The notes below the pieces were generated by a model. The model did not search any database and was not told where the DNA came from. It saw nothing but the letters and a program-made list of their open reading frames with translations. This document shows, one piece after another, positions 3,001-60,310 of a stretch of 64,000 bases of DNA; positions within the stretch are counted from its first letter, which is position 1; the number at the start of each line of letters is the position of its first letter. The stretch is from Methanosarcina barkeri MS (GTDB lineage Archaea > Halobacteriota > Methanosarcinia > Methanosarcinales > Methanosarcinaceae): the NCBI RefSeq assembly GCF_000970025.1, contig NZ_CP009528.1, forward strand, positions 248,001 through 312,000. The letters are read 5' to 3'. Both the position numbers and the translations under genes were made by a program.

Positions 3001-6000
3001 CAGACTGTTTCAATCCTTGTTTTAGTGGATCTTGCTCACGAATACTCTGAAATTTCATTGTCATCACCAGACACTTCCCCGAAGGTTTCAATCCTTGTTT
3101 TAGTGGATCTTGCTCACGAATATGAAAACAAGGTCTCTAGAACGAGCCATGATTCTTTGAGTTTCAATCCTTGTTTTAGTGGATCTTGCTCACGAATCAT
3201 AACATCACCAGATTGTTTCTATCCCATTCACAAGTTTCAATCCTTGTTTTAGTGGATCTTGCTCACGAATAATACAGAGGATTTTTTTGAGCAACTTAAA
3301 CAATATGAGTTTCAATCCTTGTTTTAGTGGATCTTGCTCACGAATGAAAGTACAGGACTTCAGAAATTAGGATTGTAATATTGTTTCAATCCTTGTTTTA
3401 GTGGATCTTGCTCACGAATTTGGGCGAACCAAAGTGATTTATTATCCCGCAAAGAACGTTTCAATCCTTGTTTTAGTGGATCTTGCTCACGAATCTCTGG
3501 AAAGCAAATAAAAGTTGAATCCGAGTCTGGTTTCAATCCTTGTTTTAGTGGATCTTGCTCACGAATATAGGTAGTTGATATGTCAAATAACAAATAGTCA
3601 TGTTTCAATCCTTGTTTTAGTGGATCTTGCTCACGAATCTAAATAATACTGCTACCGTAGAGCTCAGAAGCTCCGTTTCAATCCTTGTTTTAGTGGATCT
3701 TGCTCACGAATACTCAGGCATTTTATTGATGTCTGCTTGCTGTTCTGATGTGTTTCAATCCTTGTTTTAGTGGATCTTGCTCACGAATTCCGGTTAGGTT
3801 GATGAGGACGAATGCGAGCTGAAGTTTCAATCCTTGTTTTAGTGGATCTTGCTCACGAATAGAGAGTATTGATTATTCAAAATCGCAAGTCCGGCGTATG
3901 GTGGGTTTCAATCCTTGTTTTAGTGGATCTTGCTCACGAATTTTTGTCAGGATAGAAAAGTGCCTTTCATATCTAAGTTTCAATCCTTGTTTTAGTGGAT
4001 CTTGCTCACGAATACGAATCTGATCAGATAGAGGCTACAGATCTGTTTAAGTTTCAATCCTTGTTTTAGTGGATCTTGCTCACGAATTCCAAGAATTACC
4101 CGGCTCTTCAGTCGTTGGACTGTGTTTCAATCCTTGTTTTAGTGGATCTTGCTCACGAATACCGCTCTTTATAATTTAGCTAAGGACGAAGCAATGTTTC
4201 AATCCTTGTTTTAGTGGATCTTGCTCACGAATGCGCGTGATAGTTCATTTATTCTTCCTCACAAATTGCGTTTCAATCCTTGTTTTAGTGGATCTTGCTC
4301 ACGAATTTATTTGCAGTAGGTCAAAAGTGACCTTAGTTGATGTTTCAATCCTTGTTTTAGTGGATCTTGCTCACGAATTTAAAACAGTGTACCAATTTAG
4401 ACAGGAACTGGAGTTTCAATCCTTGTTTTAGTGGATCTTGCTCACGAATAAGCTCTTATAGGTCCGGTGGGGTGTGTTGCAGAAGTTTCAATCCTTGTTT
4501 TAGTGGATCTTGCTCACGAATCTTTCAGGAAAACCGGCTTCTGGATAGCAGAAGATTAGTTTCAATCCTTGTTTTAGTGGATCTTGCTCACGAATAACGC
4601 AAAAAAACTATGAGAAACATATAGGCAGATAGTTTCAATCCTTGTTTTAGTGGATCTTGCTCACGAATTGTCATTAGATCATTTACCCTCGGTGCCGGTA
4701 GTGTTGTTTCAATCCTTGTTTTAGTGGATCTTGCTCACGAATCTTTCAGGAAAACCGGCTTCTGGATAGCAGAAGATTAGTTTCAATCCTTGTTTTAGTG
4801 GATCTTGCTCACGAATAACGCAAAAAAACTATGAGAAACATATAGGCAGATAGTTTCAATCCTTGTTTTAGTGGATCTTGCTCACGAATTGTCATTAGAT
4901 CATTTACCCTCGGTGCCGGTAGTGTTGTTTCAATCCTTGTTTTAGTGGATCTTGCTCACGAATGATAAGAAGGAAGGCCTTTTCAGGAATCGCATATATG
5001 TTTCAATCCTTGTTTTAGTGGATCTTGCTCACGAATAATAAAGGAGGGCGTTTTGAATGAATGATGATGTTGAGGGTTTCAATCCTTGTTTTAGTGGATC
5101 TTGCTCACGAATCCGAAAGCGTTACCGGGTTCCTCACCAATATGTATTAGTTTCAATCCTTGTTTTAGTGGATCTTGCTCACGAATCCAAAAAATTAAGA
5201 AAGATCAAACATCCTGAGCTCGTTTCAATCCTTGTTTTAGTGGATCTTGCTCACGAATGCTCGAGACAGTAGAGCTGTTCAAGCTGCAAGAAGTCTGTTT
5301 CAATCCTTGTTTTAGTGGATCTTGCTCACGAATACAGTCAATTGGATTGTATATCCTTTCTCCGTTCTTGGTTTCAATCCTTGTTTTAGTGGATCTTGCT
5401 CACGAATGCAAAGGGTTTGAGCGGGATATCAAAGTGGAAGGGTTTCAATCCTTGTTTTAGTGGATCTTGCTCACGAATTGTGTTTATAATGTGTTTTGTA
5501 TCAAAGAGGGGAATGTTTCAATCCTTGTTTTAGTGGATCTTGCTCACGAATGAAACTAAAAAATTGAAAGGCAGACCGTCAAAAACGTTTCAATCCTTGT
5601 TTTAGTGGATCTTGCTCACGAATGACGCGAACGACCGTATGGAAACAGCGTGTATTCATTGTTTCAATCCTTGTTTTAGTGGATCTTGCTCACGAATTCT
5701 GAATTAGTCCAGGTATGATCAAAAGTTTCGAGTGGTTTCAATCCTTGTTTTAGTGGATCTTGCTCACGAATTCTGAATTAGTCCAGGTATGATCAAAAGT
5801 TTCGAGTGGTTTCAATCCTTGTTTTAGTGGATCTTGCTCACGAATTTCCCCATTGGGTGTATAATAGCCCCTGAATCCAAGAGTTTCAATCCTTGTTTTA
5901 GTGGATCTTGCTCACGAATCCGCTGGCATTAGCTGAGCTATCAGAGTCAATGATGTTTCAATCCTTGTTTTAGTGGATCTTGCTCACGAATATAAAAGAG

Positions 6001-57494: not shown

Positions 57495-58212
57495 AACAAA
57501 ACCCCGACAAAGTTTTCTAGTATTGATGAAGTTTCTTAGTTTATTTGCTTGTTTAGTTGATTATCAAATAACTAGTTATCCGGAATTTAATTAATCGTTA
57601 AGTAATTAATACTCAAACAATTCTATTTTTAAACCCACTTAATTCATTTTTGTTTTTAAACCCACTTAATTCATTTTTGTTTTTAAACTAACTTAATTCA
57701 TTTTTGTTTTTAAACTAACTTAATTCATTTTCGTTTTTAAACTAACTTAATTCATTTTTGTTTTTAAACTAACTTAACTAGTTTCTGTTTCCAAACTGAC
57801 TTGACTATTATCTGAGCTACGTGCTTTATTTGCAAAGACAGATATATTGAGTGGTTCACTATATATAATAACTTCAGTCTGTAAGATCTAAATAATATAT
57901 AATTTTTCCTATGTATTTATGTATATTTACTAATATTTTCTTAAATATTCTGAAGTACATATTATTTCATTATCTTTCTGCTAACTAACATCAGTTTTAA
58001 TCTAACAATTATCTTAGCTGGCTAATTCCTTCCTTTAAATCACAACAATTCTTTCAGTTGGTTCATTCATTCGTTTAATTGCGGGAAATTACGGAAGCAG
58101 GAGAAACAGAAGACTATGTAAAAAATAGTTAGACTATCAGATAAACATTTATAGTCAGTGAAAGTAACTTCTATCAATAAAAAACATAACAATTTCATAG
58201 TGGGGGAAAAAC
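57495..58212. repeat. Intergenic region with 27-bp tandem repeat
   Basis: From about 57627 to 57790 a 27-bp unit containing ACTTAATTCATTTTTG and TTTTTAAAC is repeated six times, starting at 57637, 57664, 57691, 57718, 57745 and 57772 (last copy diverged). No gene is seen in the rest. GTGGGGG at 58200-58206 serves DUF1699. Confidence 0.85.
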
Positions 58213-58620: not shown

Positions 58621-58938
58621 GTTCATACAGAGCAAAATATTTTAAAATTCTTCACTGGAGATATAAGTATATTCAAAGATAGTCAGAAAGGTCTCAGGCT
58701 TTTCAGGAATCCACGTTATTTTTGATCTCCAGCTTAAGTTTTTCATTTATATAAGCTCTATTGAGTTCTTGGGCTTAAAATTTAGCCTGTATTTTCCACA
58801 GAAGGAATTTTACAGGATTATTTTTTTATCACTATAGCGTTTACCTTTATTGTTGAAAATTTTGAATTGGATTTTTGAATTGGATTTTTGAATTGGATTT
58901 TTGAATTGGATTTTTAAATCTTTGAATATTTTCTCTGT
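58621..58938. repeat. Intergenic region with 15-bp tandem repeat
   Basis: GAATTGGATTTTT with linking TT is repeated four times between about 58862 and 58917. No gene is seen. The right end is the 3' flank of the kinase gene, whose frame may extend to 58939. Confidence 0.75.
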
Positions 58939-59022
58939 TCAAAAAGTAAGTTTTTGGATCTTGACCTGCTTGCTGTGAAACCCGTCTCTTTTAAGCGTAA
59001 CAATTCTCAGGAAACCTTCTAT

Positions 59023-60138
59023 CTAAGGACACAAGTTGAAAGTTCTTCCGTTTTCGATAGGAAGATTTTCAGGATTTCTATGACCATGAACTTGATAAGT
59101 ATTCTCATTCGTATTTTTATTGAAACTTGTAGCGACCATATATGCATCTTCTGGCTCGCCCACTCCATTAATCATCTGATCGGCTCCGACAAAAACCAGA
59201 TTTTCAGGAAGGCTGCTAAGGCCTCCGTGAGTTACGAGCACGCATTTATTATAAAATTTATAATAAACGCATGTCCTTAATTTCTTATGTAAATCAAGGA
59301 CATTATTTTTTGTAACGCCTAACTGCTCCATTTCTTTCAAATCGTACCAGGTATTTGCAAACTCGGAGACCTGAGTTTGTTCTTCGCCTTCGGCCAGCCA
59401 GCAAAAACTTTTTTCGTTATCTCCTTCAAGCAGGATTACATTATCCCTGCACATAATGGAGATCAGAAACTTAATAATCTCGGCATTTTCAGTATTTTCA
59501 GCCCCTCGGCCTGTGTAATCTCCCAGAAAGATATACAGGTCACTGTCGTTAAGCCCGCATGCAAGATATTGCATAAGAGCTGTGTAATTCCCAACTATAT
59601 CCCCAATATGATGGATTTTTTTGTAGTTGGAAAAGTTAGTTGGCTTGTATCTAATTCTTTCATAAAATTCACATGGGTTTATTACCGTAACAAATGATGG
59701 CACTGTTTGCCTGTTTATCACAGAATACAGTTCATCAATTACAGCTTCAGGTACAACTTCATATTCAGGTCTTTTCCTGTTTCTCTCCTTTGCAATTTCA
59801 AGGGGAATCTCGGAAAAATCAACACAGATAGCTGAATATCTGTAAGTTCTTACAAGCTTTCTGTACTTCGCAATATCTGCGTTTCCGGCATTTGTCGCGT
59901 CTAAAACTATGAAATCCCCATCTTCCATACGGCATTTAATGAGAGAGTAAATAAGTCCCCAGACCCGACGATTGATTTTTTGAGAGATTACAGGCCTTCC
60001 GGTAACAGAGAGTACAGGTGGCTTAATAAGTAGACGGACATTGTCTGAAGAGATGGTGTAAGGCTCAAGGTTATTTTCCCTGACAAAAGTTGATTTGCCG
60101 GAGCCAGGTATTCCTCTCAAAAATACCAGATACCTCAT
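59023..60138 (-). CDS. Polynucleotide kinase-like protein fused to a degenerate metallophosphatase; amber codon near its end
   Basis: A 371-aa protein to the UAG at 59023. An N-terminal P-loop kinase (FLRGIPGSGKSTF, FIVLDATNAGN; residues 1-165) resembles the kinase of Pnkp/T4-type RNA repair enzymes. A calcineurin-like domain follows (about 175-365) but its metal ligands are altered: HHIGDIVGNY for GDxHG, FLGDYTGRG for GDxxDRG, LLEGDNE for GNHE; THGGL and VHGHRN remain. Past the UAG the frame continues IEGFLRIVTLKRDGF to a UGA at 58939, matching the conserved end of such phosphatases. UAG may be read as pyrrolysine, giving 397 aa. The 5' flank is a 15-bp repeat array. Confidence 0.85.
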   Translation of the reverse strand: MRYLVFLRGIPGSGKSTFVRENNLEPYTISSDNVRLLIKPPVLSVTGRPVISQKINRRVWGLIYSLIKCRMEDGDFIVLDATNAGNADIAKYRKLVRTYRYSAICVDFSEIPLEIAKERNRKRPEYEVVPEAVIDELYSVINRQTVPSFVTVINPCEFYERIRYKPTNFSNYKKIHHIGDIVGNYTALMQYLACGLNDSDLYIFLGDYTGRGAENTENAEIIKFLISIMCRDNVILLEGDNEKSFCWLAEGEEQTQVSEFANTWYDLKEMEQLGVTKNNVLDLHKKLRTCVYYKFYNKCVLVTHGGLSSLPENLVFVGADQMINGVGEPEDAYMVATSFNKNTNENTYQVHGHRNPENLPIENGRTFNLCP

Positions 60139-60310
60139 ATCATACCCAGTATCTTATATTCTACTCCAGTCTCTTATATCTATATCATATCTCAATACTC
60201 TATGCAATACCTCATATCATATCTCAATATGTCATACCTCAATATGTCATACTTCAATATGTCATACCTCAATATGTCATACTTCAATATGTCATACCTC
60301 AAAGTATATG
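60139..60310. repeat. 15-bp tandem repeat upstream of the kinase gene
   Basis: AATATGTCATACCTC and its variant with TTC alternate about six times from 60215 to 60305, with diverged copies back to about 60165. It occupies the likely promoter/5' UTR of the leftward kinase gene, so copy-number change could affect expression. Confidence 0.85.

Follow-up and report, generated by a model that had tools for sequence, protein, structure and literature searches.

UAG codons in Methanosarcina genes

The pyrrolysine (Pyl) residues of MtmB, MtbB, and MttB are thought to act in catalysis, and the in-frame UAG encoding them is conserved across species. In archaea with pyl genes, UAG is used both as a sense codon and as a stop, and dedicated Pyl RNA elements have been found to be non-essential (PMC2933860). 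An amber codon introduced into uidA in M. acetivorans is read through at about 20 to 30%, and the thg1 gene of the same organism, encoding tRNA-His guanylyltransferase, carries a species-specific amber, with Pyl not being required for activity (PMC2933860).

Here, we describe an in-frame UAG in a kinase-pseudophosphatase gene of Methanosarcina barkeri (assembly G000), located within a window of 64,000 nucleotides, the whole stretch of DNA analyzed. The gene starts with an ATG at 60138 on the minus strand and, as delimited by its open reading frame and Pfam domains, runs for 371 codons (59026..60138, minus strand) up to the UAG at codon 372 (59023..59025, minus strand). Past the UAG, 27 sense codons continue in frame (IEGFLRIVTLKRDGFHSKQVKIQKLTF; codons 373 to 399; 58942..59022, minus strand) until a UGA (58939..58941, minus strand). 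A sequence-only reading of this stretch had the gene (59023-60138, minus strand) end at the UAG and the frame stay open to the UGA at 58939, and these coordinates are confirmed here; its count of 25 codons past the UAG is corrected to 27. In addition, we observe three tandem repeats around the gene, comprising a 15-bp unit repeated 5.7 times upstream of the gene start (window 60217-60302), a 13-bp unit repeated 4.6 times immediately beyond the UGA (window 58860-58919), and a 27-bp unit repeated 6.6 times farther past it (window 57626-57802).

The closest parallel is thg1 of M. acetivorans, where, likewise, a single species carries an in-frame UAG while its relatives have sense codons and the host is a Pyl-decoding Methanosarcina, and the kinase UAG appears to resemble it in origin. 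However, Pyl has been seen in the Thg1 protein, whereas the M. barkeri kinase is a candidate at the sequence level, and its UAG lies near the C terminus of a gene missing from relatives. With mtmB the gene shares an in-frame UAG in a coding sequence of the same genome, but in contrast to the conserved UAG of MtmB, MtbB, and MttB, that of the kinase gene is private and falls at a variable position. At the keyword level, the gene does not appear in the main text of earlier Pyl-gene surveys (PMC1914089, PMC3639795, PMC1242214).

A kinase joined to a degenerate phosphatase domain

The kinase domain (codons 1 to 160; 59659..60138, minus strand) matches Pfam AAA_33 over residues 4 to 138 (E 4.9e-19) and has retained its P-loop (GIPGSGKST) and DATN motif. 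The P-loop is kept across orthologues, with GKSA in one of them. It is followed by a domain matching Pfam Metallophos, the calcineurin-like phosphoesterases, over residues 174 to 308 (E 1.2e-8), which occupies codons 165 to 371 (59026..59646, minus strand) and displays a degenerate active site (GDIVG, GDYTGRG, and GDNE). The best relatives with solved structures are the polynucleotide kinase domain of Clostridium thermocellum Pnkp and PPP phosphatases.

In all 14 aligned Methanosarcina proteins, DxH has lost its His and GNHE its Asn, and in 13 of the 14 the second Asp of GDxxD is gone. Because the residues lost from these metallophosphatase motifs bind metal or take part in catalysis, the phosphatase domain is probably catalytically dead genus-wide. 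The earlier description of the protein as a kinase-phosphatase thus stands for the kinase motifs and fails for the phosphatase half, which lacks catalytic residues throughout the genus. We further observe that this conserved pseudophosphatase, joined in one protein to a kinase of the polynucleotide type, is under purifying selection genus-wide (L001-L014; window 59026-59646), with a tree-wide omega of 0.25 for the pseudophosphatase domain and 0.14 for the kinase.

The order of kinase and then metallophosphatase is also that of bacterial Pnkp (C. thermocellum type), whose structurally solved kinase domains match that of the M. barkeri protein. In contrast to Pnkp, the M. barkeri protein carries no ligase domain and its phosphatase active site shows neither DxH nor GNHE; it scores 52 bits against the TIGR04075 (Pnkp) cut-off of 750. 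Bacterial homologues of 729 to 736 amino acids were found in Lachnospiraceae, Breznakia, and Leptotrichia (L030, 4001-6199; L032, 4001-6211; L033, 3977-6166). Those of Lachnospiraceae, Breznakia, and Lacrimispora (L030-L032) are 38 to 43% identical to the M. barkeri protein over the shared part, tail included. They differ in that bacterial homologues retain the GDIHG, GDxxD, and GNHE motifs and in that L030 combines the kinase and these intact phosphatase motifs with an RNA ligase domain, while also scoring far under the TIGR04075 cut-off. Proteins of the L030, L032, and L033 type apparently form a separate kinase-phosphatase-ligase family, which may be the source of the Methanosarcina gene.

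Codon 372 and the tail beyond it

Codon 372 is a sense codon (GAA, GAG, GGG, or GGA) in all 15 other Methanosarcina orthologues reaching the site, coding for either Glu or Gly at a variable residue, and among these sequences TAG occurs only in M. barkeri G000. The UAG therefore arose on the G000 branch. The closest sense codon is the GAG of M. spelaei MC-15 (G017), one G-to-T transversion away from TAG. The tail aligns with the C terminus of every Methanosarcina orthologue that spans the region, as well as with the bacterial homologues, and the orthologue in G023 terminates in KIQKLTF-UGA, matching the position of the final UGA in M. barkeri, which we take as the ancestral gene end. These alignments bear out the proposal of the sequence-only reading that the UAG interrupts an ancestral frame, and the check it suggested, for sense codons at this position in orthologues, finds them. 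TAG is also an ordinary terminator in the gene family, since the full-tail orthologues in G009, G003, and G006 end with it.

An open frame past the UAG proves nothing on its own, because extensions of such length are common in the genome. In a survey of open reading frames of at least 120 amino acids over 1.24 Mb of the M. barkeri genome, an open extension of at least 27 codons after the terminator was observed for 10 of 36 TAG-ended frames (28%), 91 of 476 TAA-ended frames (19%), and 57 of 335 TGA-ended frames (17%). It is the homology to orthologue C termini that places this tail above chance expectation.

The structure of the protein was predicted with AlphaFold2 on an 18-sequence alignment (mean pLDDT, 78.6; pTM, 0.80). 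In the model, the tail forms the last two beta strands (376-383 and 386-393; block confidence of 92 at residues 381 to 390), and codon 372 falls in a loop between strands 366-368 and 376-383. Pyl at residue 372 would thus occupy the loop, and stopping at the UAG would strip both terminal strands, which are present in every intact orthologue. That the 371-residue form is instead a new functional end, with the tail dispensable to a non-catalytic phosphatase half, would fit the loss of catalytic residues from that domain and the variable C termini of orthologues (392 to 407 codons); however, no intact orthologue stops short of the two terminal strands, and we consider this reading very unlikely. 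A single-base sequencing or assembly error is the least probable account of all. TAG and GAG do lie one base apart and one genome of the species was compared, but the assembly is near-complete, consisting of two contigs (4,533,209 and 41,698 bp), and the gene is otherwise free of lesions. Over the first 20 kb of the smaller contig, 86% of the length matches the M. barkeri 227 plasmid at 100% identity, which places the assembly in M. barkeri.

Readthrough, selection, and loss of the gene

The M. barkeri genome encodes a tRNA-Pyl with anticodon CUA (G000:C2:164804-164875) just before PylS (G000:C2 165664-166380), as well as two mtmB genes with one in-frame TAG each. This machinery agrees with the earlier statement that Methanosarcina decode UAG as Pyl and makes some Pyl readthrough of the kinase gene plausible. 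The gene shares with Pyl proteins an in-frame UAG with homologous coding sequence beyond it, in a genome encoding tRNA-Pyl and PylS; since none of the 15 other orthologues carries the UAG, membership among the conserved Pyl proteins is not established. A dedicated Pyl signal downstream of the UAG was rejected, as the 103 nt folded past the codon show no stable RNA structure and fold more weakly than shuffled sequences (z, +1.6).

A genome-wide excess of in-frame TAG, as a sign of tolerated readthrough, was likewise rejected in a comparison that paired about 300 genes from 1.24 Mb of the M. barkeri genome with their counterparts in 1.2 Mb of M. barkeri Wiesmoor (G029), where no excess over TAA and TGA was seen, at small counts. 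Single internal stops comprised two TAA and one TAG; over all in-frame stop classes, TAG made up 5 of 31, against about 38% of opportunity under the mutational model, and two of the five TAGs sit in an apparently spurious open reading frame. A second in-frame TAG, within G000:C2:363310-363669 (locus L090, about 3310-3669), replaces a Glu of a 120-codon hypothetical gene of Wiesmoor. It is followed by 55 conserved codons, and the first codon is no longer Met; the gene may be a pseudogene.

One possibility is that the full-length Pyl form matters and that readthrough sustains the gene, perhaps tied to a methylamine-dependent Pyl supply. The complete Pyl machinery encoded in the genome would allow this, codon 372 maps to a predicted loop that could accommodate a different residue, the tail is intact, no intact orthologue lacks either terminal strand, and the body of the gene is under purifying selection on the G000 branch. 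Nevertheless, the absence of the UAG from all other sampled species at an unconserved E or G residue, the loss or breakage of the gene in several relatives, and the lack of both RNA structure past the UAG and an in-frame TAG excess make such a selected use unlikely. Of the proposal that the gene yields a Pyl protein, plausible readthrough is what stands, and selected use is what the private UAG, the variable site, the gene losses, and the missing TAG excess speak against.

Among 31 Methanosarcina genomes, counting G000, the gene is found whole or partial in 17, with a weak partial match in one more; outside the genus, the one match seen was weak and came from a genome of the same family. In G023 the orthologue is frameshifted (G023:C31:43984-45190; L015, L020), with much of the protein sequence still recognizable, and in G015 it carries several lesions, stops among them (G015:C1:547604-548792; L016, L021), with the protein sequence again largely recognizable. 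The kinase gene is absent beside a conserved DUF1699 neighbor in two genomes, namely G029, whose plasmid sequence is that of M. barkeri Wiesmoor, and G014 (M. vacuolata Z-761). As G002, G017, and G024 carry the gene at this DUF1699-adjacent site, loss in the two genomes is the simpler reading. Judging from these absences and lesions, the kinase-pseudophosphatase gene is dispensable within the genus.

Such repeated loss and breakage, in G023, G015, G029, and G014, would also suit a gene at the onset of decay, in which the UAG ended a working protein and readthrough is irrelevant, as would the already degenerate phosphatase half and the removal of two predicted strands by truncation. We fitted a codon model with separate omega for the G000 branch and the rest of the tree. 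The first 371 codons show an omega of 0.15 on the G000 branch, which is far under 1 (2 x delta lnL, about 38) and no different from the remaining tree, indicating that the gene was alive for most of this branch; a pseudogene over the whole branch was rejected on this value. Given this body omega and the absence of any further lesion across the 371 codons, decay, if any, began recently, and we regard an early pseudogene as an improbable reading. That the kinase half is still working is what we infer here.

The tail has an omega of 0.52 on the G000 branch (interval, 0.19 to 1.08), indistinguishable from its background value of 0.39. It fits continued constraint as well as neutrality and is in this sense uninformative about tail selection, as 27 codons are too few to reveal selection since the UAG appeared. 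In addition, 66% of neutral simulations across the whole branch keep a tail of such length open, and its being open does not therefore speak for readthrough. An intact tail and an omega indistinguishable from background are compatible with continued selection for the full-length protein.

Taken together, we favor, with a probability of about two-thirds, a young, species-specific UAG that is neutral or mildly damaging and acts mostly as a stop and partly as a Pyl codon, rather than a selected, programmed use. A point mutation in the M. barkeri lineage, most simply from GAG to TAG, would have hit a poorly conserved loop codon. Most ribosomes would then stop, and their product of 371 residues would lack the two final predicted strands, whereas the few that insert pyrrolysine would complete all 399 residues. 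Partial suppression by Pyl-tRNA, as would occur at any UAG in M. barkeri, would soften the mutation, and the allele would therefore be neutral or mildly damaging. The readthrough fraction would, by analogy, be like that of the M. acetivorans reporter, and neutrality of the allele is likewise our inference; plain termination would yield an abnormal protein, which counts against full neutrality because intact orthologues keep both strands. A recent truncation, which the sequence-only reading had offered as its alternative, is compatible with all of these observations.

A more far-reaching version, in which the full-length form would depend on charged Pyl-tRNA and methylamine growth would thereby switch the form of a nucleic-acid end-healing or signaling kinase, appears quite unlikely; if true, the kinase would be a genuine Pyl protein with no part in methylamine metabolism. 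For the recognition of Pyl proteins, an open frame past a UAG is weak evidence, as about a quarter of the sampled TAG-ended open reading frames show such a length. As favored here, the kinase gene would offer a clean, thg1-like comparative example of how a UAG of dual meaning lets ambers enter Methanosarcina genes through single mutations.
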